The position numbers and the translations under genes are program-made. A DNA stretch of 64,000 nt from the NCBI GenBank assembly GCA_018402525.1, contig JAGYIR010000011.1, forward strand, positions 372,001 to 436,000, given 5' to 3'. The notes under the pieces are model-generated. The model searched no databases. It was not told the origin of the DNA and worked only from the letters and a program-made list of their open reading frames with translations. Source of the DNA: Crocinitomicaceae bacterium. Its GTDB lineage: Bacteria > Bacteroidota > Bacteroidia > Flavobacteriales_D > Crocinitomicaceae. Below are positions 16,649-35,125 of this stretch, piece by piece. The first letter of the stretch is position 1, and each line of letters starts with the position of its first letter.

Positions 16649-18812
16649 ATGCTAAAGCTCTTTACATCACTTGCTTTTATAACGTTAATAACTCTGACCT
16701 ATTCTCAACAGTTGTCTGTTGCAAAAATCTGGAAAGAATATGCTTTTTTCGGCAAATCTGTAGATGGATTCCGTTCTATGAATGATGGAAATTACTTTTC
16801 CAAAATCACAGGCAATTCCATAACAAAACATAAATTCTCAGATTATAAAGGTGAAGGCGAGTTATTGATTACCGAAAGTGATTTAAGTTACGACGGTGCA
16901 AAAATCAATTTTGACGATTACTATTTTAACAGTGATGAAACAAAAGTGCTTTTTACTACACAAACACAAGGAATCTATCGTCATAGCTTTTCTGCGGTGT
17001 ATTACTTGTATGATATTAACTCAAAGAAAACAGAGCCGCTGGATGAAGAACGTCAACCGCAAACGCTTGCTGAATACTCACCTGATGGTAAAAAAGTTGC
17101 TTACATTTTTGAAAACAATTTGTACATTAAAGATATCGCTAGCGGGAAAGTCGTTGCAGTTACAACTGACGGTGAACGGAATAAAATTATCAACGGAACA
17201 ACTGACTGGGTATACGAAGAAGAGTTCGCTATTATTAAAGGATATGAATGGTCGCCCGACAGCAAATACATTGGTTTCTTGCGTTTTGATGAAAGCGCTG
17301 TGAAAGAATTTAACATGACCTATTACGAAGAACTTTATCCAGACCTGTACACCTTCAAATACCCTAAAGCTGGAGAAGAAAATTCCAAAGTGACATTACA
17401 CATGTATAGTCTCGTTGGAAATGAGGTGTTAAATACCGTTGATCTCGGAACCTATGAATACATTCCGCGCTTAAAATGGTCGGGTAGTGAGAATAAATTG
17501 ATTGTTCAAACAATGAACAGGCATCAAAATCACCTTAAATACCATGCCGTTGGAATTGAGAAAGAGGTTGTAAATGCCTCCGTGTTTTATGAGGAAAAGT
17601 CAGAAACGTACATCGACATTGATGATAATTTAATTATCCTAAACGACGGTAAAACAATTTTACGTACGAGTGAAAAGGATGGCTACAACCACATTTACAA
17701 ATTGTGTTTTGATGGAGAGATGAAACAAGTCACCACTGGAAACTGGGATGTAATTGAATTTTTGGGTGTAGACGACAAAAACACCACCATATATTATACT
17801 TCAGCTGAAAGCGGTGCGATTCACGAATCGATCTACAAAATTGGCTTGGATGGAAAAAAGAAGAAACTAATTAGCAACGCCACAGGCTCTTCTTCTGCTG
17901 AATTTTCGAACGGCATGAAATTTTTCATTAAAACGTATTCCAATGCAAATACACCTCCCATTTATTCCTTGTGTGACAACAATGGAAAAGAGCTAACAAT
18001 TCTTGAAAACAACGCTGGACTAAAAGCACGTGCAGAACAATTTAAATTTTCACCAAAAGAGTTTGTGACTTTTAACGGAACAACAGAAAAATTAAACGGT
18101 TGGATAATAAAGCCAGCTAATTTTGATCCTCAAAAAAAATACCCAGTATATATTAATATATATGGTGGACCTGGTTCTAACATGGTTTCCGATTCTTGGG
18201 GTGGCGTTAATCTAGCTTACCACCAGCTTCTGGCTCAAAACGGATACATCGTTGTTTCTGTTGACCCGAGAGGGACAATGTACCGAGGTGAGAAATTTAA
18301 AAAGTCGACTTATTTGGAGCTAGGAAAACTTGAAACAGAAGACTTTATCAATGTAGCGAAGGAATTACAAGGATATGATTTTGTCGATCCAGCAAGAATT
18401 GGAATTATGGGATGGAGTTATGGTGGATTTATGACATCCCTGGCAATGACGAAAGGAGCTGATGTTTTTAAAATGGGAATTGCCGTTGCACCGGTGACTA
18501 ATTGGAGGTATTACGATAATATCTACACGGAACGTTTTATGCGCACACCTCAAGAAAATGAAAGTGGTTACGACGACAACTCCCCTATCAATCATGTAGA
18601 CAAGTTAAAAGGCAACTACTTATTGATTCATGGTTCTGGTGACGATAACGTGCATTATCAAAACACGATGGAAATGATCAATGCACTTGATTGCTGCGGA
18701 TAAGCAATTTGATCTGTTTATCTACCCAAATAAGAATCATGGAATTTATGGTGGAAACACTCGAAATCACCTATTTAACATGATGTTTGAGTACACATTG
18801 AAAAATTTATAA
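16649..18812 (+). pseudogene. S9 family (dipeptidyl peptidase IV-type) serine peptidase, one-base frameshift near the 3' end
   Basis: An exported peptidase of about 720 residues that would release dipeptides from peptide N termini in the periplasm or at the cell surface. A signal peptide (MLKLFTSLAFITLITLTYS) is followed by a DPP-IV beta-propeller (about 30-480) and an alpha/beta hydrolase domain. The nucleophile is Ser590 in GWSYGGF and the acidic residue lies in HGSGDDNVHYQNT. After NAL at 18688 one extra base (G at 18689) shifts the frame and gives a premature stop at 18703. Removing it restores DKQFDLFIYPNKNHGIYGG with the catalytic His, ending at 18812. As read, the protein lacks that His and would be inactive. 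The rest is intact, so a base-calling or assembly error is plausible. Confidence 0.85.
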
Positions 18813-18914: not shown

Positions 18915-20205
18915 ATGAGTGAAATTGCAAAATTTGAATTGGGCGGAAAAACGTATGAACTGCCAGTAATTGAAGGTACTGAAAACGAAAAAGGAATTGA
19001 CATCAGCGCACTTCGCGGTCAATCCAACGGATACATTACCCTTGATCCAGGTTTTAAAAATACGGGAAGTACGAAAAGTGCTATTACCTATTTAGATGGT
19101 GAAAACGGTATCCTGAGCTATCGTGGCTACCCAATTGAGCAATTAGCTGAAAAAGCAAGCTTTTTAGAAGTCGCTTACCTGTTGATTTATGGTGAGCTTC
19201 CTACCCAAGCCGAATTTGATAAATTTCAGTCTAGCATCACCAACCATACATTGGTGCATGAAGACATGAAACAATTCTTTGAAGCTTATCCTGCAAAGGC
19301 GCATCCAATGGGTGTCTTGGCTTCAATGGTTTGTTCATTGTCGACTTTCTACCCAGAATCATTGAATCCTAATAGAGGACAAGATGCGATGAATTTGACG
19401 ATTCAACGTTTGCTTGCAAAGCTCCCGACGCTTGCCGCCTGGTCCTACAAAAACGCAATGCGTCACCCGTTCATGTATCCTAAGAATGACTTAGATTATT
19501 GTGAGAACTTTTTGCATATGATGTTCGCAATGCCGACTTCGGATTATAAAATTGATCCCTGTCATTGCTCAAGCATTAAATAAACTATTAATTCTTCACG
19601 CTGATCACGAGCAAAACTGTTCAACTTCAACTGTTAGAATAGTAGGATCATCGCATTCAAACTTATACGCTTCAATTTCTGCTGGAATCTGTGCATTATG
19701 GGGTCCACTTCATGGTGGCGCAAATCAAGCGGTAATTGAAATGTTAGAACAAATCCATAACGACGGAGGTGATGTTGATAAATGGGTGGCTAAAGCAAAA
19801 GACAAAGATGATTCTTTCCGTTTGATGGGATTTGGGCACCGCGTCTATAAAAACTTTGATCCACGTGCAACAATTATCAAAAAAGCATGCGATGATGTGT
19901 TAGAGAAACTTGGAGTTGACGATCCATTATTAGCAATTGCAAAGAAATTAGAAAAAGTTGCGTTAGAAGATGAGTACTTCAAGGCGCGAAATTTATATCC
20001 AAACGTAGATTTCTACTCAGGAATCATTTACAAGGCAATTAACATTCCTACCGAAATGTTTACAGTAATGTTTGCTATCGGTCGTTTACCAGGATGGATT
20101 GCTCAATGGAAAGAAATGCTTGAGAATGGCGAGCCAATTGGTCGACCACGTCAAATTTATACAGGAGCAACGAAACGTGATTACGTTGACATCTCCAATA
20201 GATAG
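18915..20205 (+). pseudogene. gltA: Citrate synthase, interrupted by a one-base frameshift
   Basis: Type II-like citrate synthase (condenses oxaloacetate and acetyl-CoA), about 429 residues when repaired. The N-terminal part (MSEIAKFELGGKTYELPVIE) ends out of frame at 19583, while the second half is open from 19552. The break is an extra C in the CCC run at 19557-19559; with CC the text reads [20 protein letters not shown]. All catalytic parts exist after repair: [16 protein letters not shown], the active-site His in [10 protein letters not shown], and the Asp in [11 protein letters not shown]. Loss of the only visible citrate synthase would be severe for an aerobe, so I think this is a sequence error unless another copy exists. 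A terminator follows the stop codon. Confidence 0.88.
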
Positions 20206-20225
20206 AAATTCAACATATACACTAC

Positions 20226-20257
20226 AAAATTCCACTAATCTCTTAGTGGAATTTTTT
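20226..20257 (+). terminator. Rho-independent terminator after gltA
   Basis: A 13-bp stem (20226-20238 with 20243-20255) with a four-base loop merges into a T run ending at 20257. It starts 20 bases past the citrate synthase stop and separates it from the adhesin operon. Confidence 0.88.
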
Positions 20258-20283
20258 GTTTTATTAAAATGGTGTATCTTCGC
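20255..20283 (+). promoter_or_regulatory. Probable promoter of the adhesin/PorP operon
   Basis: TTTG (20255-20258) and TATCTTCGC (20275-20283) fit the Bacteroidota -33/-7 pattern with a 16-base spacer and one change in the -7 box. It overlaps the T tract of the gltA terminator and lies about 60 bases before the first adhesin gene. Confidence 0.5.
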
Positions 20284-20344
20284 ACCGTAAAATTTGATTT
20301 TAAATCAAAAAACGAAGTTTTATCTACCTTAATCGCTATAACTT

Positions 20345-23300
20345 ATGACTCCGATTTGGAAGTGCTTACTATTCTCACTATTTTTTCTTTTTCATAAGTC
20401 AGTCAATGCGCAAATTGACACTATTTTCTGGTTTGCAGCACCTGAAGTCTCCGCTTCTACTGGTGAATCCCCTGTATATTTGAGATTCATGTCGTATGAA
20501 AACGCATCTGACCTGACGGTTTCTTTGCCAGCCAATGGAGCATTCCTTCCGATTAACATTTCCCTTCCTGCGAATTCCATTGATAGCATTGACCTAACTC
20601 CATTTTTAGCAAGTATTGAAAGTCCAGCAGGAAATGTGATTTCAAACAATGGGATAAGAATTACTGCGACTGAAAAAATAAGTGCTTTTTATGAACTTAA
20701 GGCGCCAAGTAACAAAGAACTTTTTTCGCTGAAAGGAAATAAAAGCTTAGGTACAAATTTCTATACACCATTTCAAAAATTTTGGAATAACGCCGTTACA
20801 GTGCCAGCATCATTTTCATCGATTGATATTGTAGCAACGGAAAATGCAACGACTGTATTGGTGACACCAAGAACAAACATTATCGGGCATGCACAAAATG
20901 TCACCTTTTCAATCACATTAAATGAAGGCGAAACCTATAGTGCGCGAGACATGAATGTTTCTGCATCCTCTTCGTTAGCTGGTTCAATCGTCTCAGCCGA
21001 CAAACCAATTGCAGTAACTTTGTACAGCGGTGCTTTGGTCAACTCTACCTGCGAAAGTAGTATGGGTGATCAAATTACTCCTGAAGATTATACAGGAAGA
21101 GATTACGTAGTTCACGGCGGAACCTCATCAAGTGACAGGGTTTACATTCTTGCCACTCAGAACGGAACTTCGGTTACATTGACTAACAGTGCCACGACCA
21201 CTACCCTAATTAATTGGGGTGAAACTTATGAAGTAGCTCTATCAGAAGCACACAACTATATTTCTTCAACAAAACCTATTTACGTTTGGCACACTGCGGG
21301 ATATGGTTGTGAACTAAGCGGAGCACAAATACCTCCAATGTACTGCGCAGGAACATATTCTACTGCGTTCACTAGATCATCGAGTGACTCACTAGGGTTA
21401 ATTCTATACACTCGAACTGGATTTGAAGATCAATTTGAATTGAATGGAAACCCGAGCTTAATCCCTTCAGCTGCCTTCACAAATGTACCTGGGACTTCGG
21501 GAGAATTTAAAATGGCACTTATACATTATTCTACAGCCGAAATACCCATTAATTCGTATAACGAAGTAACGAACACAGGTGATATTTTTGGTTTAGGTGT
21601 AATCAATGGAAACGACGGAACAGGCAGTGGCTACGCGTACTTTTGAGAATTCAACTCCTATCCGTTTATCGACGCAGGACAGGATGATACGATTTGTGCA
21701 AATACTTCAATCAACCTAAATGGAATCGTTGGAGGAGGATCTGTGACTGGAAATTGGAGCGGAACTGGATTCGGAAGTTTTTCAAATCCAACAAGTGAAC
21801 TTTCTAATATATACAGCCCGAGTGCGCTCGACACGATCATTTCACCTATTCAGCTTATTCTGACTTCTACAGGACCTTGCCCCGTAATTCGTGACACCAT
21901 GACATTAGTGGTAGAGCCGGCACCCATCGTGAATGCCTCTGCAAATCAATCAGTTTGTGTTAATAACTCCATCGTACAACTAAACGGAACAGTTGGAGGC
22001 GGAGCAAATTCAGGTGTCTGGAGCACATTAGGAACAGGAGTGTTCACACCAGATAGTGTCACACTTAATGCAGAATATATCCCTTCCGCAGCAGATTTGG
22101 CACTTGGAGGCGTTCAACTCGTATTAACATCGACAAATTTTGGTTCTTGTGTGGTTGAAACAGATACCATGGAAGTCACATTCACAATAGCCGCAACGGT
22201 AGACGCGGGCAACGATACACTATTTGTCTGTAAAAACAATCCACTTGTCACCTTGTCAGGAAGTGTCTCAGGCGTAACCTCATCTGGCAAGTGGACGTCA
22301 TCAGGAAGTGGAGTTTTTGCTCCGGATAACTTGACCTTAAACGCTACTTACAACCCAAGTCCAACCGATTTAGCGGCTGGAAGTATTTGGCTCACCCTGC
22401 AATCTACGTCCAATGGGAATTGTGTCACCGAATATGATAGCCTCATCGTAATATTCACTGATTCTCCAGTAGTGGATGCTGGTACCAATTCTTTGACATG
22501 TACAAATGATGCATCCATCCAATTGAGTGGTGTAATCAGTGGTGCCACAACTACAGGGAACTGGAGTGGAGGAGCTGGAACCTACGCTACGAATAGTTCG
22601 GATTTAAATGCACTTTACACCCCAACAGCAGGAGAAATAGCAAGTGGAACTTTATTTTTAACGCTTACTTCGACCAATAATGGAGGTTGTCTGGCTGTCA
22701 TTGATAACGTTCAAATTAACTTTGTAGCGCCACCTTTCGCAAACTTTAATTTTACAGAAGAATGTCTCTATGACATGACTGTACTTACTGATTTCTCATT
22801 GCCGGGGTACGGAATTATAAATAACTGGGCATGGAACTTTGGAGACGGGAACACATCTTCCAACCAAAATGAAACACATAATTATTCGACTCCTGGAATG
22901 TATGATGTTCAGTTAATCGTTTCTTCTGATGTTGGTTGTAGCGATACTATTTTGCAACAAGTGCAAGTTTTTGAAGTCCCTGTTGCAGATTTTAGTTTTT
23001 CTTCTAGCTGTCCCAATAACCAGATTATTGTAGACTTTACCGACGAATCTACAACCGTAAGTGACGCCATTAATTATTGGTATTATGATTTTGGAGGTCA
23101 AGGAACTGCGGCAGTTGAAAATCCGACGCAATTGTTCACTTCAAATGGCAATTATACAATTGTTCATATTGTAGGAACAGTCAACGGTTGTTACGACACA
23201 ACTACACAGCAACTAAATGTACCTGCGCTACCAAATGCAGGGTTTTCTTACAATACCGATAATGGATTAAACATTGGTGCGGTTTTCAACTTTATTAGCA

Positions 23301-23776
23301 CTGCGACAAACACGAGTGGATATTTTTGGGAGTTTGGCAATTCGCAGACCTCAAACGAGCAAAACCCGAGTAGTACATACTTTTCGAATGGAACATACAC
23401 CATTACGCAATATGCCTATGGGTCACTTGGCTGCGTAGACAGCACATCTCAAACAATCACTATCAATACTGTCACAACTGAGATAAATTCTTTAATTCCA
23501 AATGCCATTTCACCAAATGGAGATAACAAAAACGATGTCTGGAAGCTAGAGTTCATTCAATTGTTATACTCAGAGGCATCAGTAAACATCTTCAATCAAT
23601 GGGGTCAGTTGATTTTCGAATCCGTAGGTTATGAAACTCCATGGGATGGAACCTATCAAAACAGCGGTGAATTTGTTCCTGATGGAACGTATTACTATGT
23701 CATTGATCTCAACGCAACTGGTGATGAAACCGATATTTACAAAGGGACAATACTCGTACTCAAAAGCAAAAACTAA
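20345..23776 (+). pseudogene. Large surface adhesin with type B T9SS domain, interrupted by an in-frame TGA
   Basis: Encodes about 1143 residues if the TGA at 21644-21646 is read through. A signal peptide (ending SVNAQ) precedes an N-terminal module (about 25-430) resembling IgGFc-binding-protein N-terminal domains. Four Cys-paired repeats of about 85-90 residues follow (from about 440, 527, 617 and 707), then three PKD-like domains with WxxxFGdG-type motifs (about 797-1045). The end is a gliding-associated (CHU_C, type B) sorting domain with AISPNGDNKNDVWK and NQWGQLIFES. The frame is unchanged across the TGA; the aligned paralogue has a Ser at this place, so one base change (TCA to TGA) would explain it. 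It could be true inactivation or an error. Its stop overlaps the start of the next gene, a PorP/SprF partner. Confidence 0.82.
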
Positions 23777-24750
23777 TGGTCAGAATTTTACTACTTTTAA
23801 TCGGACTTATGGTTGGTGAGAACCTCCTTGCACAGCAACAAGGTGTTTACTCCAATTTCCTAATGAACGATATTTACTACAACCCGGCAATTGTTGGAAG
23901 TAAAAATGTTCATATCGCTAACATGAGCTACAGGAAGCAATGGGTAGGTTTTGCTGGTGCCCCAACCCTAATGACAGGCAATTTCTACGGTTCCATAAAA
24001 AATCAAGGTAAAATGGGATATGGCGTATCGCTGACATCAGAAAGCACGGGGCTAACGCAAAACAACACCATTTATCTAAACTATGCGCACCATTTCAAAC
24101 TAACAGAAACGCTTAAACTTGGACTAGGAATTAAACCTGGACTCATGCAATACCGTGTCAAACTATACGATGCACAGCTGGCAGATGAAGGTGATGAAGT
24201 GTTGACAGGAAACGTTTATTCCGCAAGTGCAATTGATATGAGTGCTGGTTTCAATTTGTATTCTGATAAATTCTTTGTCATGGCATCCGCAAGTCACATG
24301 CTTGGAAATTCCATTCAATTCACAACGTATAATTCAAATCTTGCTTTTCATTTCAACGGAATTGCGGGGTATAATTTCAAATTCAAGAAAAAGAATTTTG
24401 AATTACAACCAAGCGTTATGGTCAAATATGTTAGCCCGATTCCAGTCCAGGTAACGGGAATGTTAAAAGGAACTTTCTCTAATAAATTTTGGGTAGGACT
24501 TATTTACCGATCGAACGACGCAGCTGGTATTTCAGCTGGATTAAATATTAAAGAACGATTTACTGTCGCTTATGGATATGATTACACTCTGTCTCGATTA
24601 AGCAACTATCAATCTGGATCTCACGAAGTAATGCTGTCATTTATCATTACCAAGAAAAAGCCAACGCTTGAAGAGGAAGACGATAAACTTAACAACAGTA
24701 TCATGGAGGAAATGAAACTGAAAATGGAAGAAAAGGAAAAGAATAAATAA
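23776..24750 (+). CDS. PorP/SprF family T9SS outer-membrane protein (partner of adhesin 1)
   Basis: A 324-residue outer-membrane beta-barrel of the PorP/SprF family. The signal peptide ends near LLAQQ. The family opening follows: YSNFLMNDIYYNPAIVGS, with the usual NPA motif, then the Y/M-S-Y-R-x-Q-W-x-G-F/W segment and regular amphipathic strands. SprF-type proteins are needed for secretion and surface anchoring of type B cargo. The ATG overlaps the adhesin stop codon (TAATG), so translation is coupled. The C terminus ends in a highly charged K/E-rich tail after the last strand (about residue 290), which is not standard for the family and could face the periplasm. The role as partner of the preceding adhesin is inferred from arrangement. 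Confidence 0.88.
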   Translation: MVRILLLLIGLMVGENLLAQQQGVYSNFLMNDIYYNPAIVGSKNVHIANMSYRKQWVGFAGAPTLMTGNFYGSIKNQGKMGYGVSLTSESTGLTQNNTIYLNYAHHFKLTETLKLGLGIKPGLMQYRVKLYDAQLADEGDEVLTGNVYSASAIDMSAGFNLYSDKFFVMASASHMLGNSIQFTTYNSNLAFHFNGIAGYNFKFKKKNFELQPSVMVKYVSPIPVQVTGMLKGTFSNKFWVGLIYRSNDAAGISAGLNIKERFTVAYGYDYTLSRLSNYQSGSHEVMLSFIITKKKPTLEEEDDKLNNSIMEEMKLKMEEKEKNK

Positions 24751-24758
24751 TTCTAGCT

Positions 24759-27700
24759 ATGAAACTATTAAAGTATTTGATTTTAGTATTGGTGCTCTGT
24801 AAAATGAGTTTCAATACAGTGCAAGCACAAATTGACACGGTCTTTTGGTTCGCAGCGCCTTGGGTAACTCCTGATCACGACGGAAATACTCAAATGGCAT
24901 TTCGAATTTCGACATTTAACAATCCAACGAATGTTCGGATTCAAATGCCTGCGTTGACCTATGACACTACATTCTTTGTTCCAGCGAATTCTCTCGCTGA
25001 CGTACCCGTAAGTCACTTAGTCAATGACATAGAGAGCGGACCGGCTGATGCTGTTTTAACAAGTGGAATTAAAATCACCTCCGATGAGTTAATCACAGTA
25101 GTGTATGATTTTATTTCTGATCTCATCACCATTAGCCCTGGTACTCCCAATAATCCTGAAACGTATTCATTAAAAGGACAAAATGGAATGGGAACCGAAT
25201 TCATTACACCATTTCAGACCTTATGGGACAATCGAGTTTTGACAGTTGACAGAAACGGAGATGGTTTTATTACACAACCACGTCAATACTTTTCAGTGAT
25301 TGCCACAGAAGACAACACGACAATTTATATCAAACCAAATTGTGATGTTGTAGGACACCCAGCGGGCATCACCTACTCAGTGGTTTTACCAGTTGCTGGA
25401 AATGTGTACACATGTGAAAATGTTGTTATGACCACAAGTAACCCTGGTTCCAACCTTAGCGGCTCTATTGTCTTTTCAGACAAACCTGTGTCCGTTACAA
25501 TCAATGATGATTCTGTAAACCCTTCTGGAGGTGGGGGGTGTTTTGACCTAATGGGAGACCAGATTGTTCCAACTGATGTTATTGGTACGGATTATATTGT
25601 AAACGAAGGATTTTTGAATGCAGGCTCAAATGAATCAATTTTTATAATTCCTGCAGAGAATTTCACGACTGTCACTGTCGACGATGGAGCTGCTACTACA
25701 CAACTGATGAATCAAGGTGAAACTTGGCAATACTCTATTAACGAGTTACTTACTTCCGTGCGAGCAGACAAACCCGTTTATGTTATCCATATGTCAGGCT
25801 ACGGTTGTGAGTTAGGATTAGCAATTTTACCTCCTTTGAACTGTGCGGGGTCGGATGAAGTGTCGCTTTCCAGAAATAATGCGCAGCAATTTTTATTAAA
25901 CATTCTCTGCGAAGCTGGAGATGAAGGCTCGTTTAACATTACCCCAGGACCTGCAACAATTCCTCCTGGTGCATTTAATCCGGTACCTGGTTTGCCTGGT
26001 TGGGTTGGAACACAAATCGACTATCCAGTTGGAGATATTGCTCCTGGAAATCAATACAATATCACAAACTCTGCAGGATTCTTTTCACTTGGAGTTATTA
26101 ATGGTGGAGCTTCAACAGGCTGTCTTTACCATTATCTTTCATCTTTCAATAGAAAAGTGTATACCAATGCAGGTAACGATACAACGATGTGTAGCGGTGA
26201 ACCTCTTGTCAGCTTGTCAGGTACAATCCAAGGAGGCTCAACAACTGGGTCATGGAATGTGGAAGATGGCACTGGGACTTTAAATAGTCCAAGTAGTTTG
26301 GCGACAACATATGCACCTAGCACCAACGATTACAACCAAGGCTTTGTGACATTTGTGTTGTCCTCAGATGGAAACTGTGAACCCGTTCGTGATACCATGG
26401 TGGTGACTTTCATTCAATCGCCAATTGTAGATGCAGGACTTGATGATGAATACTGTAAAAACAATATTGGAGTAATTCCAATCAATGGAAGTGTCTTTTT
26501 TGCAACAGGAGCTAGTTGGGCTGGAGGAAACGGAGGTTCGATTGGCAACCCTGGTAGTCTTTCAACTTCCTACACGCCATCCCCAGCAGATATTGCTGCA
26601 GATAGTGTGGTGCTTTATTTGACCTCTGCAGGTAGCCTATTTGCTTGTCAAGATGATCAAGATACCGTAGTTATACATTTTACTCCTTCTCCGAATGTAA
26701 CTGCAGGTGCTGATCTAGTGCTTTGTTCCAATGAAACAACCATTAATCTCAATGGAAGCATTTCAGGTGGAACGACTTCAGGAGAATGGAGTACAAATGG
26801 CGCTGGTGCATTTGCTCCAACGAACTTAAATCCGGTGACAGATTACCTTGTCAGCTCAGCCGATACTGCGACTGGTAACATAACGCTGTATTTAACCTCT
26901 ACCAACAATGGAAATTGCCTCGTAGAAATGGACAGCCTGCAAGTAACGTTTCTAGATGATCCTGTACTGGAAATCACTTCCTCAGATAGTATTTGTTCTA
27001 ACCTTAATGTGCTAGACTTAGATGGAGTCATTTCTCTGGGATATTCTCCAACATGGACAACCTCAGGATTTGGAACAATCATTGCTCCAGGCTCCATTAA
27101 CACACAATACAATATTTCACCAGTTGATACAACCGCGGGATTTGTAGATATTTTCCTAGAATCAAATGCTGGAATTTGTCCAATCGTTCAGGATTCAATT
27201 CGTATTTATTTCATTGACCCTCCTGCTGTCGACGCTGGACTAAATCAAGATTTTTGTGAAAATCAGGTCATTCAGTTAAACGGTTCGGTTACTGGAGCGA
27301 GTACTGCTGGTACATGGTCTACATTGGGGACAGGAACGTTCAATCCAGGACCTAATTTACTCGTTACCAATTATGTTCCTTCAGCAATTGATATCGGAAA
27401 TGGTTCTGTAAACCTTATCCTTACAACAGAAAGCGTTTTTGGCTGTGCACCAGAAAGCGATATGCTCACCATCACCTTTTTAACACCTCCCAATGCAGAC
27501 TTCAGTTCAAGCGTTGCTTGTGCAGGAGAAAATACTGCTTTTACAAACTTATCCAGTACAACAACAGGTACAGTGACCAATTGGGATTGGGATTTTGGAG
27601 ATGCTGTTACTTCCATTGTTAGTGACCCTTTGCATACGTATACTGGAAGTGGGAATTATTTTGCAACACTTGTCGTAACTGGAAGCAATGGTTGTTTGGA

Positions 27701-28490
27701 TACCATTACTCAATCAGTAACGATTAATCCAACTCCAGTAGCTAACTTCAATCCAACGATTGCCTGTGAGGATACACCAGTTGATTTTATCGATTTGTCT
27801 TTTATCTCCAGCGGAAGTATTGATTCTTGGCTGTACGATTTTGGATCCACAACAAGCTCTGAACAATATCCGACGTACATATTTAACACCTCAGGAAATC
27901 AATCTGTCACCCTCACTGTAACGTCTGACTTAGGTTGTGTTGATGATACAACGATGAACGTGCTCGTGCATCCATCCCCAAATGCTGACTTCTCTTTCAG
28001 TCCTAATCCTGCATTGGTGCAAGAGGCAGTTTCCTTTGAAGATGAATCCACAGGAAACCAAATTGGCAACTGGTTTTGGGATTTTGGTAACGGTCAAGCC
28101 AATAATGTTCAAAACCCTGTTCAATATTTCAATGATGGTGGTAGCTTCGAAATCTTGCTCGTTGTTACCGATGCAAATGGTTGTCAAGACTCAATTCGAA
28201 AAATTATATCCATCGCGCTGCCACCTGTACTCCCTTCTGGTTTTACACCAAATGGTGATGGTGAAAATGATGTATTTCTAATTCGAGGTGGACCGTTCAA
28301 TGAAGTCGATTTTAGAGTTTATAATAATTGGGGAGAGCTCATCTTTTCTACAAATGACGCGACGGTCGGTTGGGATGGTACTTATAAAAATGAACCTGTA
28401 CCAATGGGGGTTTACTCGTGGACTTTCGCTGTACAAATGACCAATGATGAAATTATCAAAGAGTCTGGTGATGTTACCTTAATTCGTTAA
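24759..28490 (+). CDS. Giant surface adhesin with Cys-paired repeats, PKD domains and type B T9SS domain
   Basis: A 1243-residue secreted protein, intact paralogue of the broken adhesin upstream. A signal peptide (ending TVQAQ) leads to an IgGFc-binding-like N-terminal module (about 26-465) that opens with IDTVFWFAAPWV, nearly as in the paralogue. Five Cys-paired repeats follow (from about 468, 553, 647, 734 and 820), then three PKD-like domains (about 910-1150). A CHU_C/type B sorting domain closes it (GFTPNGDGENDVFLIRGG, VYNNWGELIFS). The likely role is cell-surface adhesion or attachment, exported by the T9SS with help from the PorP/SprF protein two bases downstream. It begins eight bases after the previous PorP gene. 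Ligand unknown. Confidence 0.88.
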   Translation: MKLLKYLILVLVLCKMSFNTVQAQIDTVFWFAAPWVTPDHDGNTQMAFRISTFNNPTNVRIQMPALTYDTTFFVPANSLADVPVSHLVNDIESGPADAVLTSGIKITSDELITVVYDFISDLITISPGTPNNPETYSLKGQNGMGTEFITPFQTLWDNRVLTVDRNGDGFITQPRQYFSVIATEDNTTIYIKPNCDVVGHPAGITYSVVLPVAGNVYTCENVVMTTSNPGSNLSGSIVFSDKPVSVTINDDSVNPSGGGGCFDLMGDQIVPTDVIGTDYIVNEGFLNAGSNESIFIIPAENFTTVTVDDGAATTQLMNQGETWQYSINELLTSVRADKPVYVIHMSGYGCELGLAILPPLNCAGSDEVSLSRNNAQQFLLNILCEAGDEGSFNITPGPATIPPGAFNPVPGLPGWVGTQIDYPVGDIAPGNQYNITNSAGFFSLGVINGGASTGCLYHYLSSFNRKVYTNAGNDTTMCSGEPLVSLSGTIQGGSTTGSWNVEDGTGTLNSPSSLATTYAPSTNDYNQGFVTFVLSSDGNCEPVRDTMVVTFIQSPIVDAGLDDEYCKNNIGVIPINGSVFFATGASWAGGNGGSIGNPGSLSTSYTPSPADIAADSVVLYLTSAGSLFACQDDQDTVVIHFTPSPNVTAGADLVLCSNETTINLNGSISGGTTSGEWSTNGAGAFAPTNLNPVTDYLVSSADTATGNITLYLTSTNNGNCLVEMDSLQVTFLDDPVLEITSSDSICSNLNVLDLDGVISLGYSPTWTTSGFGTIIAPGSINTQYNISPVDTTAGFVDIFLESNAGICPIVQDSIRIYFIDPPAVDAGLNQDFCENQVIQLNGSVTGASTAGTWSTLGTGTFNPGPNLLVTNYVPSAIDIGNGSVNLILTTESVFGCAPESDMLTITFLTPPNADFSSSVACAGENTAFTNLSSTTTGTVTNWDWDFGDAVTSIVSDPLHTYTGSGNYFATLVVTGSNGCLDTITQSVTINPTPVANFNPTIACEDTPVDFIDLSFISSGSIDSWLYDFGSTTSSEQYPTYIFNTSGNQSVTLTVTSDLGCVDDTTMNVLVHPSPNADFSFSPNPALVQEAVSFEDESTGNQIGNWFWDFGNGQANNVQNPVQYFNDGGSFEILLVVTDANGCQDSIRKIISIALPPVLPSGFTPNGDGENDVFLIRGGPFNEVDFRVYNNWGELIFSTNDATVGWDGTYKNEPVPMGVYSWTFAVQMTNDEIIKESGDVTLIR

Positions 28491-28492
28491 TT

Positions 28493-29485
28493 ATGATGCG
28501 AAGAATAATCTTACTATTAATTATTTCGTTGACTACATTGCGTAGCTCAGCACAAGATGCTCACCTTTCATTGTATGATGCCGCACCTTTATTTTTAAAT
28601 CCGGCAATGACCGGTGTCTTTCAAGGTGACTGGAGGTTACATGGACATTTTAGAACCCAATGGAAAGCGGTCAACTTTAAACCCTATACGACAGGACTGC
28701 TAAGCTTTGATATGCCTTACAAAAAATGGGGGTTTGGCGTACAACTTTCCAATTTTAGAGCTGGACAGGGAAATTACAATGCGCTTCAAGGAACGCTATC
28801 CGTTGCATATGCCACCTCACTAGACAAGAAGAAAAACCACAATTTATCCTTTGGAATTCAAGGTGGTGTCACTCAAAAAACAATTGAATATCAATTGTTG
28901 TCGTTCAACAATCAATACACCACAGCGGACGGTGGTGGTTTCGATGAAACTATGCCGACACAAGAAGACTTTGCGGGGCAATCGACAACGGTGCCAGTGG
29001 TAAATGCAGGTTTTTTATACTTCTTTGCAAAACAAGAAAGTCGATTTAACCCGTTTATTGGAGGATCTGCCTTCAACCTTACACAACCAACAGAAACACT
29101 CTACAATGCAGACAATCGCTTACCTATGCGCTTTTATGGGCATGTTGGTACGCGAATTAACATTACAGAGTTGCTCTACGTGATACCAAAGGTTTTAGTC
29201 ATGAATCAACGTGAATTTTGGGAGCAAACATACGCTTTAGATGCCGGATACTACTTCAAGGAAAGTGATTTTTATTTGATAGGAGGAGCTGTATTTAGAG
29301 CAAACGATGCTATGATTATTTCACTCGGGGCTAAAATGGAGAACATTGTAGCTAAAATTGGGTACGACATCAACATTTCCTCTTTATCAACGATTTCAAC
29401 CGGCCGCGGAGGATTCGAAATTTCAGTCACCTACATCAAGCAAAAGAAAAAACCTACGACCGATAAAATATGTCCACGACTTTAA
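28493..29485 (+). CDS. PorP/SprF family T9SS outer-membrane protein (partner of adhesin 2)
   Basis: A 330-residue beta-barrel of the PorP/SprF family. Signal peptide LLLIISLTTLRSSAQ, then AHLSLYDAAPLFLNPAMTG with the family NPA motif, a W-R-x-x-x-x-F-R-x-Q-W segment, and the mid-protein LPMRFYGHVG block that is typical of the group. The gene starts two bases after the adhesin stop (a second ATG follows immediately). It is clearly related to the PorP two genes upstream and to the one next to gldJ, but unlike the former has only a short basic tail. Expected to anchor or aid secretion of the preceding type B adhesin; this pairing rule is known from SprB-SprF in Flavobacterium, the specific pairing here is inferred. 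Confidence 0.9.
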   Translation: MMRRIILLLIISLTTLRSSAQDAHLSLYDAAPLFLNPAMTGVFQGDWRLHGHFRTQWKAVNFKPYTTGLLSFDMPYKKWGFGVQLSNFRAGQGNYNALQGTLSVAYATSLDKKKNHNLSFGIQGGVTQKTIEYQLLSFNNQYTTADGGGFDETMPTQEDFAGQSTTVPVVNAGFLYFFAKQESRFNPFIGGSAFNLTQPTETLYNADNRLPMRFYGHVGTRINITELLYVIPKVLVMNQREFWEQTYALDAGYYFKESDFYLIGGAVFRANDAMIISLGAKMENIVAKIGYDINISSLSTISTGRGGFEISVTYIKQKKKPTTDKICPRL

Positions 29486-29499
29486 GCAGCTCAGAAAAG

Positions 29500-31605
29500 A
29501 TGAAAAAAACTATCCTATTCATTTTACTTATATTTCCACTTATCGGATATAGCCAGTCGAGAAAAGTGTCGATGAGTCATGCTGACACGTATTTTGAAGC
29601 AGAAGATTACCATAACGCACTTCTTAACTATCAAAAGGCGTTGAGCGATTCTTCTGGACTTAGTTCTATGATCTTTCCTTATGAAATTCAAGTTTCGAAA
29701 CAAAAATTAAAAAATAAAGAAGTTGAAATTGATTCATCGAAAACCGTTCCAGTGAAGGATTATCTCGAGCATCAAATTGCCATGTGCTACCTTAAAACGT
29801 ACGATTACAAAAAGGCTGTCGAGCATTTCGCAAAAAGCAATACCTATACCTCGTACCCTGAGGATGTCTACCATTATGCAGTTTCCCAGATGAATGTAAA
29901 TGAACATGAAGCAGCCATCTCTACATTTGAAAAATACATTCAGTCCGATAGTTACTCGGATTCACTTCTAAGAAGTGCCCAATTACTTATCACTGGATGC
30001 TACTATGCATTAGACAAGGACAACATAAAGACGGAAGTGCTGGTAAATTTGGCGGATTCAACTACTTTCAATAAAGGCAGTTCTTCCTTTGCACCTATGT
30101 ATTTCGGTTCTGAAGATCGAATACTCTTTACAAGTGCAAGAGCCGGTGGCGTAATTCTTGATCCTGAAAAACAAAATTCCGAATTCTTATGTGATTTATA
30201 TTGGACGGAAACGACAGGAGACAATAAGTGGTCAGAAGCAACGAATTTTGGCCGACCACTCAACACGGCACAGCACGATGCATCAGGTTCCTTTAGTCCA
30301 CGAAATATAATTTACTATACCCGCTGGAATGATGAGAATAGAAAAGACCAGAACATCTACTTAGCCCGAATGGTTGATTTCAAATTTTACGAATCATTTA
30401 AATTGCCTGAGTCTGTAAACGTTCCCGGCTACAAAAGCATTAACCCCTTTGTTTCGATGGATGGGTTGACGTTGTATTTCTCGAGTAATCGACCCGGTGG
30501 ACAAGGTGGGTTGGACTTATGGAAAATAGCCTTGGATGAATTAGGAAACGTGACAGGAGAAGCTGTCAACCTTGGCAGACCGATCAATTCTGAACTGGAT
30601 GAGGTCAGTCCATTTTTCCATGAAGTATCCTCTACGCTATTTTTCAGCTCTAACGGACACAATTCCATTGGTGGATTGGATATTTTTAAATCGCAATACA
30701 ACCGCCAGAACAAAGCATTTGAAGAACCAATCAATCTTGGTATGCCAATAAATTCAAGCAAAGATGACTCCTATATTATTTGGGACAAACTTTTGAGAAA
30801 AGGATTTTTCGCAAGTGATAGAGAAGATTGCGAGGCTGGACATTGTTACAACATTTACGAAGTAACTAACGAGCCTATACGCATTGAACTGGAGGGATAT
30901 GTCTATAATTCAGAAACCAATGAAATCATTCCAGATGCTGAGTTGATTTTTAAAGACATTGAATTCGTATTCAAACCTTTTACGCTTAAAACAGATAAAA
31001 ACGGGTATTATAAAACAGATTTGAATCAAAACCAAGAGATATTTATCAAGGCGCAAAAACCTTCCTTTTTCGCTGATGCTGCTTCCGTAAATACGAAGCC
31101 CATAACCGAATCAACATTGTTACAACAGGATTTCCATTTGCGACCTATTCCAACAGACGAAATCGAAATAGATGGAATTGAATACGATTTCAATTCGGCT
31201 AATTTACGTCCTGAATCTGAAGAAAAACTAGATGTTCTATATGAATTCCTCGTGTTAAATGATAACCTAATCGTCGAAATTAATTCAAATACTGATTTTA
31301 GAGGAAGTGATCAATACAACCAGAAATTATCAGACAGAAGAGCTAAGTCGTGTGTTGACTACCTCATTAAAAAGGGAATTTCTAAAGACCGTTTGAAGGC
31401 AGTTGGTTATGGGGAATCCGTTCCAAATTACTTGAAAGATGAAAACAAGAAACCAATTCTAGATGCGGGCAATAAACGTATTTACTTAACCGAAGAATTT
31501 ATCAACGCAGCGGCAACTGAGGAATTAAAAGAAGATTACCATCAACGCAACAGAAGAACTGCGTTTAAGGTTGTCGGCGAAGGATTTGAATTGAAGAGTG
31601 AATAA
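29500..31605 (+). CDS. PorE-like TPR / beta-propeller / OmpA lipid-free envelope protein
   Basis: About 701 residues. I place the start at ATG 29500 because MKKTILFILLIFPLIGYSQS is a clean signal peptide; an ATG at 29470 would overlap the previous gene. Domain order: TPR-like helices (about 25-170), PD40/WD40-like propeller blades (about 185-450, with LYFSSNRPGGQGGLDLWK), a carboxypeptidase-regulatory-like domain (about 460-540), and an OmpA C-terminal peptidoglycan-binding domain (about 550-695, with FNSANLRPESEEKLD and NQKLSDRRAKSCVDYL). This order matches PorE, a T9SS component that binds peptidoglycan and the Por ring in Porphyromonas. Here it closes an adhesin/PorP operon, so it may be a dedicated rather than core copy. 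It has no lipobox. Confidence 0.87.
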   Translation: MKKTILFILLIFPLIGYSQSRKVSMSHADTYFEAEDYHNALLNYQKALSDSSGLSSMIFPYEIQVSKQKLKNKEVEIDSSKTVPVKDYLEHQIAMCYLKTYDYKKAVEHFAKSNTYTSYPEDVYHYAVSQMNVNEHEAAISTFEKYIQSDSYSDSLLRSAQLLITGCYYALDKDNIKTEVLVNLADSTTFNKGSSSFAPMYFGSEDRILFTSARAGGVILDPEKQNSEFLCDLYWTETTGDNKWSEATNFGRPLNTAQHDASGSFSPRNIIYYTRWNDENRKDQNIYLARMVDFKFYESFKLPESVNVPGYKSINPFVSMDGLTLYFSSNRPGGQGGLDLWKIALDELGNVTGEAVNLGRPINSELDEVSPFFHEVSSTLFFSSNGHNSIGGLDIFKSQYNRQNKAFEEPINLGMPINSSKDDSYIIWDKLLRKGFFASDREDCEAGHCYNIYEVTNEPIRIELEGYVYNSETNEIIPDAELIFKDIEFVFKPFTLKTDKNGYYKTDLNQNQEIFIKAQKPSFFADAASVNTKPITESTLLQQDFHLRPIPTDEIEIDGIEYDFNSANLRPESEEKLDVLYEFLVLNDNLIVEINSNTDFRGSDQYNQKLSDRRAKSCVDYLIKKGISKDRLKAVGYGESVPNYLKDENKKPILDAGNKRIYLTEEFINAAATEELKEDYHQRNRRTAFKVVGEGFELKSE

Positions 31606-31624
31606 AATCTCTATTCACTCTTTT
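31594..31624. terminator. Bidirectional terminator shared by convergent genes
   Basis: An 11-bp stem (31594-31604 with 31612-31622) with a seven-base loop. It contains the stop codon region of both the PorE-like gene and the convergent methyltransferase gene. The T run on the plus strand is short (four bases). Confidence 0.65.
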
Positions 31625-32807
31625 GATCCTCCCCTTCAGTGATATTGTACTTTGCCTTTTTGGAACCCTCGTAAATAGAATACTTGCGGAATGAGCACTC
31701 CAAATCGCCGTTGAACATTTTTATTTTTCGCTCTGGACGAAGCCCAACAAACTTAAATGCATCCATATTAGAGGAAAGAATCCAACAGTCAAAACCTTTC
31801 ATTTCAGACTTCATCCAATCGCCCATAGCGCTGTACAATTCTTCAATCTCCTCACCCATTCTTTCACCATAAGGTGGGTTCGAAATCATTATTCCAGGTG
31901 AATTAAGATCTTTCACATCCGTAAACGGTTTTACTTCCGTTTTTACAAATCTTCCAACAGATAATCCTCTTAGATTACGGCGCGTCTTGGTGATCATTTC
32001 ATCACTTATGTCCGAACCGATAATTTCACAAGGAAGCTCTTTTACACGAAGATCAACTGCCCCTCGGATCGATTCCCAAAGCGCTTCATTGTAACCTTCA
32101 AAATTCTTAAATGCATAGTGCTGACGCTCAATCATCGATGGAATTCCCGCTGCATAAAGTGCCGCTTCGATGAGTAAAGTTCCTGAACCGCAAAACGGAT
32201 CTACAAACGTTGATTTCTTATCCCACCCAGACATACGAATCAATCCAGCAGCAACTACTTCGTTCAATGGAGCAATTCCAATCTCTTCTCGATATCCTCT
32301 CTGAAACAACGGTGCACCGCTTGTATTCATAGAAATCGTAACCACTTCCCTGTTGATGTAAACATCAAACAAGACTTGAGGCGTTTTAACATTCACATCC
32401 GGACGATCGCCTACCTTCTCTCTAAACGTGTCTGCTATGGCGTCCTTTACAACGAGCATTGGATACTGCGTATGATTGAACATATCAGAAAAAACAGATC
32501 CCTTTACAGCAAATGTCTTGTCCAAAGAAAAGTATCGGGTCCAATCTATCTTCATACACGACTTGTACAGGTCGTCCTCATTTCTAATTTTAAAGACCTT
32601 GACCTCAACTAATACAGAAATAGCACAACGCAAATGAAAGTTCAAATAATAAACATCACGCCAAGTTCCTTTTAGCTGGACAGCACGATTTAATTTTTCA
32701 ACTTTATTATAACCAAGCTCGTTGAGTTCTTCAACAAGCACCTCTTCCAACCCGAAAATAGTTTTTACCGTTATTGTAAGGATTGTATTATCCGCTTCTT
32801 CTTTCAA
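31611..32807 (-). CDS. THUMP-domain class I SAM-dependent RNA (guanine-N2) methyltransferase
   Basis: About 398 residues. A THUMP RNA-binding domain (about 10-165, beginning ITVKTIFGLEEVLVEELNEL) is followed by a Rossmann methyltransferase domain with VDPFCGSGTLLIEAALYA and the catalytic NPPYGERMG. The family includes the N-terminal half of RlmL/YcbY (23S rRNA m2G2445) and Trm14-like enzymes; I cannot fix the target. The frame runs further upstream, but homologues start close to the THUMP domain, and the best codon is TTG at 32807 (KEEADNTILTI). An ATG at 32882 is possible but would overlap the signal-peptide region of the divergent patatin gene. It converges with the PorE-like gene with both stops inside one hairpin. 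Confidence 0.88.
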   Translation of the reverse strand: MKEEADNTILTITVKTIFGLEEVLVEELNELGYNKVEKLNRAVQLKGTWRDVYYLNFHLRCAISVLVEVKVFKIRNEDDLYKSCMKIDWTRYFSLDKTFAVKGSVFSDMFNHTQYPMLVVKDAIADTFREKVGDRPDVNVKTPQVLFDVYINREVVTISMNTSGAPLFQRGYREEIGIAPLNEVVAAGLIRMSGWDKKSTFVDPFCGSGTLLIEAALYAAGIPSMIERQHYAFKNFEGYNEALWESIRGAVDLRVKELPCEIIGSDISDEMITKTRRNLRGLSVGRFVKTEVKPFTDVKDLNSPGIMISNPPYGERMGEEIEELYSAMGDWMKSEMKGFDCWILSSNMDAFKFVGLRPERKIKMFNGDLECSFRKYSIYEGSKKAKYNITEGEDQKSE

Positions 32808-32816
32808 AATATCTAT

Positions 32817-32824
32817 TAATTTTG
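32817..32824 (+). promoter_or_regulatory. -7 promoter box for the patatin gene
   Basis: TAATTTTG is an exact match to TAnnTTTG. It lies 15 bases before the proposed TTG start at 32840, in the gap between the two divergent genes. Confidence 0.45.
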
Positions 32825-32839
32825 TACAAAAGAACAAAT

Positions 32840-35125
32840 TTGAAGGCAAACCAACTATATATACTACTCTTTTGTTTAACATTTGCCTCAATTGCGAATG
32901 CACAACAAAAAATTGGGTTGGTTTTGAGTGGTGGTGGAGCCACTGGTTTCGCACACATTGGTGTACTTAAAGCGCTAGAAGAAAATAACATCCCCATCGA
33001 TTATATCACAGGAACGTCTGCTGGGGCACTTGTTGGGAGTTTGTATGCCATTGGTTACAGTCCTACCCAAATCGAAAATTTTGTGCTAAGTGATGAATTC
33101 CAAACGATGGCGGCAGGTGAAATTCATCCACATCAGCGATTTCTTTTTCGACAAGATGATAATGATGCCGGGCTCTTTGGAATTTCGCTTGCCCAAGAGA
33201 ATCTTTTAAAAAAATCGCTTCCTACCAATTTTACTTCCTCCGCACTTTTAGATTACCAAATGTTGTTATTAATGGGACCCGTTTCTGCTTCCTATGGACA
33301 TCATTTTGACAACCTATTTGTACCTTTTCGCTGTGTAGCATCGGATATCGTAACTAAGGAAAGTGTGATTTTATCTCACGGTCACCTGAATCAAGCTGTC
33401 CGGGCATCAATGACCTACCCCTTCTTTTTTAAACCCATCCATATCGATAGTGCCCTGCTGTTCGATGGTGGACTCTACAATAACTTTCCAGCAGATGTAA
33501 TGTATACCGATTTTAGTCCCGACTTTATTATCGGAAGTAACGTGTCCTACAACGCTGATTTACCCGAAGAAGATGACATCATTAGTCAACTTACCAATAT
33601 GCTCGTATTTTACTCAGAGTTTTCATTGCCATGCGAAGAAGGAATGATGATCGAACCTAAAACGGATGTCTCATCTTTTGCTTTTAGAGACGTTGAAAAA
33701 GCCATCGAGGACGGTTACAACGAAACTCTTCTAAAAATCGATTCGCTCAAATTGTTGATTAACCGAAGAACTGCAAAGGACGAGTTAGATCAGCGAAGAG
33801 AAAAATTTCGACAAGGAATTGTTCCACTAACCGTTTCTTCTATTTCGACACAATCTGACAAAAAACGCGTCACATTCGCAGGTAAAGCCATATTAAAAAA
33901 GAATAAAAGGGAGCAGTTGTCTTCGAAAGAACTGGAAAAAAGGTACTTCCGATTAAATTCTGCACCACAAATTGAGTTTCTTTACCCCACAGTTAGTCTC
34001 AACAGCGACAGTACGTATGAAATGAATGTTGACATTCGAAAAGCCAAAGAATTCAGACTTGAAGTGGGCGGACACTTTTCGTCAAGACCAGTAACAACAG
34101 GATATGTTGGATTATCGTATCAAACCATAGGTAAGGTAATGACGAAAACAAAATTAGAATCCTATTTTGGTAAATTTTATGGATCAGCAAAAGCAAAATT
34201 CACGCTAGAAATACCAGCCGTGAGTCCAGTTTCATTGAGTGGCTATTTTACAATGAACCGCTGGGATTACTTCAGAAGTTTCGCTACTTTCTTTGAAGAC
34301 GTAAAACCATCATTTCTGGTTCAAAATGAAATGTACACAGGATTACAGCTCGATCATCCCATCGGAAATTCTATAAAAAGTAGTTTTGATGCACGCTTTT
34401 TCGAACTGAGAGATCAATACTATCAAGATGATAATTTCACGAATCAAGATACGGCAGATTTAACTGTATTCTATGGAGGTTCGTTTCGTTGGACCTTTCT
34501 TCAAAATACACTCAATCGCATTCAGTTTGCATCAAGTGGTAGTTACTTCAAGTTTAGTGCACGCTATATTATTGGAAAAGAACATAGTATGTCGGGGTCG
34601 ACAGGACTCATACCTTACGATTTAAAACAAGAGCATTCTTGGTTAAACTTGCGCTTGGACTACCAAACTTTTTTGGTAGATATGCCCATTTTCCATTTTG
34701 GTGTTCAAGCTCAAGTGGTATATAACAACAACCCATTGTTCGCTAATTATACGGCAACGCTCCTCTCTATGTCTGAATCTACGCTGGTCATAGACTCCCG
34801 CACCTATTTTCTGCCAGAATACAGATCCCCTCAATTTATTGCAGGCGGTTTTAACTCTATTTTCACTGTCAGAAAAAATCTTGATGTTAGAGTAGAAGGT
34901 TTCATTTATCAACCGTTCATTCAAGTCAACGAAAATAGTGATGGTTCCTTGCAACTCTCAAAGCTTTTCTCAGGTGGAACCTTCATGGCATCCTCATCGT
35001 TGATTTACCACAGTTTTATTGGTCCTGTTCGTGTGACTGTGAATTATTTTCCAGAACAAAAAAATCCTATTGCGCTGCAATTCAGTCTTGGATATGTACT
35101 TTTCAATGAACGCGCAATTCGCTAA
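32840..35125 (+). CDS. Outer-membrane patatin-like phospholipase with C-terminal beta-barrel
   Basis: About 761 residues. I choose TTG at 32840 because a proper signal peptide follows (ANQLYILLFCLTFASIANA) and an exact -7 box lies just upstream. The patatin hydrolase domain (about 24-300) has the oxyanion loop SGGGATG, the nucleophile Ser60 in GTSAG, and Asp209 in FDGG, so the Ser-Asp dyad is complete. A POTRA-like linker (about 310-400) leads to a beta-barrel (about 400-761) with alternating aromatic strands, as in PlpD-type self-anchored or autotransported lipases. It should hydrolyse phospholipids or acyl esters outside the inner membrane. It is divergent from the THUMP methyltransferase and is followed by a VOC protein gene 88 bases on. 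Confidence 0.9.
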   Translation: MKANQLYILLFCLTFASIANAQQKIGLVLSGGGATGFAHIGVLKALEENNIPIDYITGTSAGALVGSLYAIGYSPTQIENFVLSDEFQTMAAGEIHPHQRFLFRQDDNDAGLFGISLAQENLLKKSLPTNFTSSALLDYQMLLLMGPVSASYGHHFDNLFVPFRCVASDIVTKESVILSHGHLNQAVRASMTYPFFFKPIHIDSALLFDGGLYNNFPADVMYTDFSPDFIIGSNVSYNADLPEEDDIISQLTNMLVFYSEFSLPCEEGMMIEPKTDVSSFAFRDVEKAIEDGYNETLLKIDSLKLLINRRTAKDELDQRREKFRQGIVPLTVSSISTQSDKKRVTFAGKAILKKNKREQLSSKELEKRYFRLNSAPQIEFLYPTVSLNSDSTYEMNVDIRKAKEFRLEVGGHFSSRPVTTGYVGLSYQTIGKVMTKTKLESYFGKFYGSAKAKFTLEIPAVSPVSLSGYFTMNRWDYFRSFATFFEDVKPSFLVQNEMYTGLQLDHPIGNSIKSSFDARFFELRDQYYQDDNFTNQDTADLTVFYGGSFRWTFLQNTLNRIQFASSGSYFKFSARYIIGKEHSMSGSTGLIPYDLKQEHSWLNLRLDYQTFLVDMPIFHFGVQAQVVYNNNPLFANYTATLLSMSESTLVIDSRTYFLPEYRSPQFIAGGFNSIFTVRKNLDVRVEGFIYQPFIQVNENSDGSLQLSKLFSGGTFMASSSLIYHSFIGPVRVTVNYFPEQKNPIALQFSLGYVLFNERAIR

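Follow-up and report, generated by a model that had tools for sequence, protein, structure and literature searches.

The 64,000-nucleotide stretch of contig JAGYIR010000011.1 analysed here (the window), from a Crocinitomicaceae bacterium (assembly GCA_018402525.1), carries on its forward strand, at positions 20345-31605, five genes that were identified by open reading frame and domain analysis in the order cargo A, PorPA, cargo B, PorPB and PorEL. These probably represent a conserved five-gene set of aquatic Bacteroidota that displays two large surface proteins, each with its own outer-membrane barrel. Both cargoes are predicted from their type B C-terminal domains (CTDs) to be secreted by the type IX secretion system (T9SS), PorPA and PorPB are barrels of the PorP/SprF family, and PorEL is a PorE-like protein predicted to bind peptidoglycan through its OmpA domain. 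We favour, with moderate confidence, a mechanism in which this surface-display operon encodes beside each cargo the barrel that takes it over, and in which PorPB is locked to PorEL by a disulfide. Operons of this kind are already known, the present one having a conserved two-cargo form; the new part is the match between a Cys in the PorPB tail and a Cys pair in PorEL, together with the hypothesis of covalent anchoring.

Gene order and conservation

Matches to IgGFc_binding, the N-terminal domain of both cargoes, were found in 80 of the 150 genomes of the family search, and 20 regions (19 genomes, 10 genus codes) were picked for having two such matches about 4.5 kb apart. All 20 fetched regions have the order A-PorPA-B-PorPB-PorEL. 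Since they were picked for the paired matches, this shows that the other genes accompany the pair and does not measure the frequency of the operon. PorEL is frameshifted in L097, truncated where the contig or region stops in L101 and L106, and short, at 547 amino acids, in L105. A search of the named collection with PorEL kept 79 loci, 17 of them with the five-gene order, some with cargo A cut or split; several of these 17 coincide with fetched regions, and six (L137-L139, L141-L143) come from metagenome-assembled genomes (MAGs). Because it recurs across the family, the order is, on this comparative evidence, not a product of chance. The operon coordinates and the two junctions described in an earlier note on this DNA also stand: the stop of cargo A and the start of PorPA share one base (TAATG at 23774-23778), and two bases separate the stop of cargo B from the start of PorPB. 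For PorEL, a start at 29500, where there is a signal peptide, is likelier than one at 29470.

Eight more distant loci with upstream room (L145, L146, L148, L149, L151, L154, L155 and L158) have the one-cargo form cargo-PorPB-PorEL, from which we infer that this looks like the core and A-PorPA like an addition. The operon is present twice in genomes G051 and G137, one cargo A of G137 being cut by a contig end. The second copy (L104 16932-18575 and L106 6033-7676) encodes a PorE-like protein of 547 amino acids without the OmpA end, its frame open in two genomes, which may be a form that is not wall-anchored.

Two cassettes that are not equivalent

Each cargo combines the IgGFc_binding N-terminus with PKD domains and a CTD scoring over the TIGR04131 cut-off (Table 1), which supports the two type B cargoes of the earlier note. 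Both barrels pass the TIGR03519 cut-off of 90.55 bits as well as that of PF11751 (PorPA 214.1, PorPB 118.8, cut-off 22.3). The tandem duplication that had been proposed was not a recent event: the cargoes are about 35-37% identical and the barrels about 25%, and in all 10 of the genus codes sampled the two cassettes differ from one another, for which reason a recent duplication was rejected. Barrel identity is 17-27% between the PorPA and PorPB groups and 40-94% (PorPA) or 49-92% (PorPB) within them.

The tails of the two barrels are conserved and different. The motif LN[NK][SG]I is found in the PorPA tails of 21 of 21 sequences (the window included, as in the other counts out of 21), none with a tail Cys, and 20 of 21 PorPB sequences end in CP[RQ]L. 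As judged from these identities and tails, the duplication is ancient and the cassettes are not equivalent, nor interchangeable copies.

That each cargo goes with its own barrel is supported by the class of the cargo CTD, which equals that of the barrel in 79 of 81 scored cassettes (exceptions L160 and L243). These were what was left of 168 unique cassettes once 36 had been dropped, as weak matches or as training loci of the hidden Markov models, and another 51 had been excluded as near-orthologues. Over the 168 cassettes, distances between cargo CTDs and between barrels gave a Mantel r of 0.88, a value uncorrected for species kinship.

The PorE-like protein

In PorEL the PD40 and OmpA matches are above cut-off, the TPR-type matches are below it, and the CRD-like region comes from alignment only. 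Against the PorE model NF052230 the protein scores 342 bits (340.6 in the comparison across the genome), under the cut-off of 600. Elsewhere in the genome there are nine PorE-like genes of 675-769 amino acids and one of 507; the top score with the PorE model belongs to one of the nine (C5:209236, 402.8 bits), PorEL is second, and none reaches 600. PorEL is therefore not the only PorE of the genome, a possibility that the earlier note had raised against its own idea and that the nine genes rule out.

No lipobox string was present in PorEL in any of 18 sequences (window included). The closest relative of its OmpA domain in the PDB is 6top, an OmpA family protein. A solved relative of the PorEL propeller was also looked for, and the sequence matches were OmpA-domain chains only, plus one chain of unrelated name over the same stretch. 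With PorPB, the PDB sequence search gave no match.

Cysteines of the PorPB tail and of the PorEL loop

The mature PorPB has a single Cys in 18 of 21 sequences, and C327 is present in 35 of 35 barrels of a chosen set of the PorPB type. With one Cys, pairing within mature PorPB is impossible. The Cys-X-Cys tail motif of SprF is absent from both barrels, the tail of PorPB having one Cys and that of PorPA none.

We collected barrels encoded directly upstream of a PorE-like gene, an uneven sample with loci mostly from three PorE-like queries and from the PorEL search of the named collection. It comprised 169 pairs, 148 of them unique; three had an unreadable loop, and 145 were scored for Cys in the barrel tail (last 5-7 residues) and in the loop, taken as the stretch that aligns with PorEL 437-451. 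In 104 pairs both tail and loop had Cys, in 41 neither did, and no pair was mixed, with a tail of 5, 6 or 7 residues alike. Cultured strains with both traits are Crocinitomix catalasitica ATCC 23190 (L155) and Flaviaesturariibacter aridisoli 17J68-15 (L199). A first count, with a tail of 14 residues and the loop set to PorEL 436-456, contained a single mixed pair, L215, whose Cys lie 9 and 12 from the end; the limits were then narrowed to the last 7 residues and up to 451. Recounting with the longer loop limit left the pair counts unchanged. Of the PorE-like columns that contain 10 Cys or more, that of C449 is the most strongly associated with the tail Cys (phi 0.98); the values for C444 (about 0.7), C167 (0.68, presumably through ancestry) and C96 (0.23) are lower. 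C167 and C96 were rejected as tail partners on these values and because both are retained in the copy without tail Cys: where G051 and G137 have the operon a second time, the barrel tail is KIIPRL, both loop Cys are lost and PorEL is without its OmpA end, while C96 and C167, in the TPR region, are kept.

The distribution over families has to be read together with another possibility, namely that the operon is of the ordinary cargo-shuttle-PorE-like kind known from Flavobacterium and that a single anchor holds both barrels noncovalently. In family code f6, by our guess Flavobacteriaceae, the loop is Cys-free in 27 of 27 scored pairs and nearly all barrels end in PR[FY]F or PRFY, so that binding evidently suffices there without Cys. 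Five operons of the ordinary kind are moreover published for F. johnsoniae (PMC12618676). The loop Cys is found in 5 pairs and lacking in 3 of family code f7, and found in 19 and lacking in 4 of the window's family. Noncovalent holding alone does not explain why the tail Cys is conserved, why the loop has a Cys pair or why the tail of PorPA is different, and we think it rather unlikely as the full account.

When PorE-like trees are built with the loop columns removed, they show two changes of each trait, and on both occasions the two traits change in concert: one change separates two big sets of pairs, and the other lies within the window's family, in the second copy of G051 and G137. It could be argued from so few changes that no intermolecular bond exists, one set of pairs having happened to fix a tail Cys along with a structural disulfide inside the propeller, for which the loop would have enough Cys (two or more in 103 of the 104 Cys-class pairs). 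We consider this unlikely, as the tail Cys was retained despite variation of the other tail residues, the Cys persisted while the architecture of the loop turned over (CX4C, CXXC...C, CC), and in the derived operon copy tail and loop Cys went together while those of the TPR region stayed.

Several observations weigh against the mechanism that we favour, with its disulfide lock between PorPB and PorEL. Two changes per trait are too few to decide (sign test p 0.5), and shared ancestry therefore explains most of the 145 matches. The absence of mixed pairs depends on the tail limit, since tails of 10, 14, 20 or 25 residues give one, the pair L215, and the number of loop Cys varies from 1 to 4. Of 101 PorE-like genes found without an adjoining barrel, 10 have a Cys in the loop stretch; four of these (L097, L153, L157, L332) are at contig ends or frame-broken, one (L241, the same as L338) lies beside a tail-Cys barrel once more flanking sequence is taken in, and two (L312, L314) have a different single Cys, and there remain L195, L236 and L237, with loop Cys and no barrel beside them even in longer stretches. 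A tail Cys is also present in barrels that have no PorE-like neighbour (in this genome C6:171779, C13:29788, C7:359838 and the window's barrel at 55274, and several others), and its occurrence is therefore not confined to partners of PorE. A lipobox-like string was seen in 9 of 104 N-termini of Cys-class PorE-like proteins, where the examples resemble ordinary signal peptides by eye, and in 2 of the 41 Cys-free paired proteins. Finally, cargo A is interrupted in this assembly.

This interruption is an in-frame TGA at 21644-21646, which splits into 433 and 709 residues what the earlier note had taken as one open frame. The orthologue is unbroken, at 1138-1163 amino acids, in 20 of 20 fetched relative regions; in one named relative (L135) cargo A is also split, at another place. 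The window contains three more split genes that are conserved, each continuing in another frame: a DPP IV-family peptidase (16649-18703), citrate synthase (18915-20205) and bioB (48262-49372). A sequence error in the assembly is therefore a fair explanation of the stop, the other being real decay of the gene.

Proposed mechanism and comparison with known systems

According to the mechanism that we favour, cargoes A and B would be exported via the general T9SS translocon, and each would then pass to the barrel of the adjacent gene and be retained on it at the surface, as suggested by homology to published pairs of cargo and shuttle. Since type B export is published to require the general translocon, the display module was overstated when it was called self-contained. 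PorEL would be a soluble, apparently non-lipidated periplasmic protein with its OmpA domain bound to peptidoglycan. A link to the PorPB tail would explain how a non-lipidated PorEL is retained at the outer membrane, and we therefore propose that the last blade of its propeller docks the periplasmic tail of PorPB and that the single Cys of this tail (C-P-R-L) forms a disulfide with one Cys of the C444/C449 pair, so that the barrel of cargo B would be covalently fixed to the wall anchor and the cargo would be static. PorPA, with its own Cys-free tail, would be held otherwise, by PorEL or by another partner.

The operons of F. johnsoniae differ from the present one in having one cargo instead of two, and the CPRL tail with a loop Cys pair seen here contrasts with the Cys-free loops of the f6 pairs, a comparison made via f6 (guessed Flavobacteriaceae). 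Alike, in operons of the Fjoh_3952/Fjoh_3951/Fjoh_3950 type, are the order of cargo, SprF-like shuttle barrel and PorE-like gene, the matching of cognate cargo and shuttle, and the proposed static complex, linked to the wall by the PorE-like protein (PMC12618676). In Porphyromonas gingivalis a PorE-PorP-PG1035 complex has been published (PMC9143113), likewise a type B cargo on a PorP barrel on PorE. There, however, PG1035 is the only type B cargo and PorE is a lipoprotein, as described together with its domains (PMC7192894), whereas PorEL is without lipobox and below the cut-off of the PorE model.

A published precedent for the bond itself is the disulfide from the SprF tail to GldK (PMC12635249), which shares with our proposal a barrel of the PorP/SprF family with Cys in a periplasmic C-terminal tail, an adhesin cargo (SprB) and twin Cys on one side with one on the other. 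It differs in that here the barrel has the single Cys and the pair is on the PorE-like wall anchor, and that the predicted partner is not a moving track. The gene sprF has no porE-like neighbour (PMC9143113). No disulfide between PorE and PorP was recognised among the literature matches listed, and the string 'disulf' is absent from PMC9143113 and PMC12618676.

This genome encodes GldJ, a GldK (TIGR03525, 551.6 bits, cut-off 350) with candidate Cys 279, 375, 410 and 419, and a DUF6089 protein, of the family of PorG, with a single Cys in its tail (L334, G000:C1:96554-97165, end GKPEKCFHQ); P. gingivalis PorG is itself reported to have a single Cys. The PorPB tail might thus bond GldK/PorK as SprF and PorG bond Cys343 of GldK (PMC12635249), with cargo B on the gliding track or the T9SS ring and PorEL co-encoded for some other reason, which we judge improbable because the known SprF motif is Cys-X-Cys and PorPB has one tail Cys, because this Cys follows the loop Cys of the PorE-like protein in presence and in loss, for which a GldK Cys343 described as invariant is unable to account, and because published mobile cargoes are without PorE-like neighbour (PMC12618676).

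With less confidence than for this operon, we extend the lock between PorPB and PorEL into a tentative general suggestion: across much of the Bacteroidota PorE-like anchors may grip the tails of their partner barrels (often x-P-R-hydrophobic), and one large branch may add a disulfide from the tail Cys to the Cys pair of the last blade, a covalent link from adhesin to wall anchor that would be the static twin of the SprF-GldK disulfide, which drives gliding. It has been proposed that PorE-like partners make adhesins static, the contact residues not being named in the available part of that work (PMC12618676). The match of tail and loop Cys names exact residues for this question of gliding versus static T9SS adhesins. 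One chemistry, the coupling by a disulfide of the barrel tail, could serve both kinds, and a rule of tails (CPRL, SPRFF or CxC) might allow the fate of surface proteins, many of them unstudied, to be read from sequence.

Other features of the window and of the genome

Table 1. Features of the five-gene operon and its possible upstream border (window positions).
Feature	Position	Strand	Evidence
Terminator-like hairpin with T-rich tail 3' of it	20226..20255	+	13-pair stem, 3' of the citrate synthase gene that precedes the operon
Cargo A, N-terminal piece, 433 aa: signal peptide, IgGFc_binding (aa 133-395)	20345..21643	+	PF17517 108.9 bits, cut-off 25.6
In-frame TGA breaking cargo A in this assembly	21644..21646	+	Frame analysis and intact orthologues
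Cargo A, C-terminal piece, 709 aa: PKD domains, type B T9SS CTD	21647..23776	+	TIGR04131 52.9 bits, cut-off 35
PorPA, PorP/SprF-family barrel, 324 aa; acidic Cys-free tail with LN[NK][SG]I	23776..24750	+	TIGR03519 226.6 bits
Cargo B, 1243 aa: IgGFc_binding, PKD domains, type B CTD	24759..28490	+	TIGR04131 49.4 bits, cut-off 35
PorPB, PorP/SprF-family barrel, 330 aa; tail end KICPRL	28493..29485	+	TIGR03519 162.7 bits
Codon of C327, only Cys of mature PorPB	29471..29473	+	Sequence
PorEL, 701 aa: signal peptide without lipobox, TPR-like region, propeller, CRD-like region, OmpA domain	29500..31605	+	Domain order from alignment to the PorE model and from PorE boundaries in PMC7192894
C444/C449 pair in the loop of the last propeller blade of PorEL; proposed partner of PorPB C327	30829..30846	+	Alignment, co-occurrence
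OmpA domain of PorEL, peptidoglycan-binding type	31183..31440	+	PF00691 60.9 bits, cut-off 27.2

The hairpin listed in Table 1 may mark the boundary of the operon and is suggestive only, terminator-like sites in 20150-31800 being not enriched (7 against 9.0 in shuffles). A sigma-70 scan for a promoter of the operon was near chance and established none. The downstream neighbour gene (31611-32954) lies on the opposite strand.

The source assembly (3.16 Mb, 19 contigs, 98% complete) has among its kin Fluviicola and other Crocinitomicaceae MAGs. Its genome contains 33 matches to type B CTDs, 31 above cut-off, and 15 PorP/SprF matches, two of which are halves of one split gene. The only two IgGFc_binding proteins are those of the five-gene operon. 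Three further barrels (C10, C4 and C5:226872) have a PorE-like gene after them.

The T9SS set that had been noticed near 50-58 kb of the window is real, with PorV, PorU, a PorP-family barrel and GldJ. This barrel, of the PorP/SprF family (55274-56242, just upstream of gldJ), has a tail with two Cys, NCKDKPATFRTISCPSF, and a 96% identical paralogue with the same tail is found at G000:C7:359838; the two may be the barrels that, like SprF, are linked to the track in this genome. Adjoining the paralogue, another PorP/SprF barrel gene (L116, G000:C7:360807-361740) lies in two overlapping frames. Two stretches of 7.5 kb with a 997-residue type B cargo and a barrel (L112 in G000:C6, L123 in G000:C15) are 100% identical, the result of a recent duplication or an assembly duplicate. 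Moreover, the PorP-family barrels at L354, L358 and L351 are extended at the C-terminus by a long stretch, to a total of 506-600 amino acids, and the ends of those at L351 and L354 resemble the end of an OmpA domain (NRRVE).

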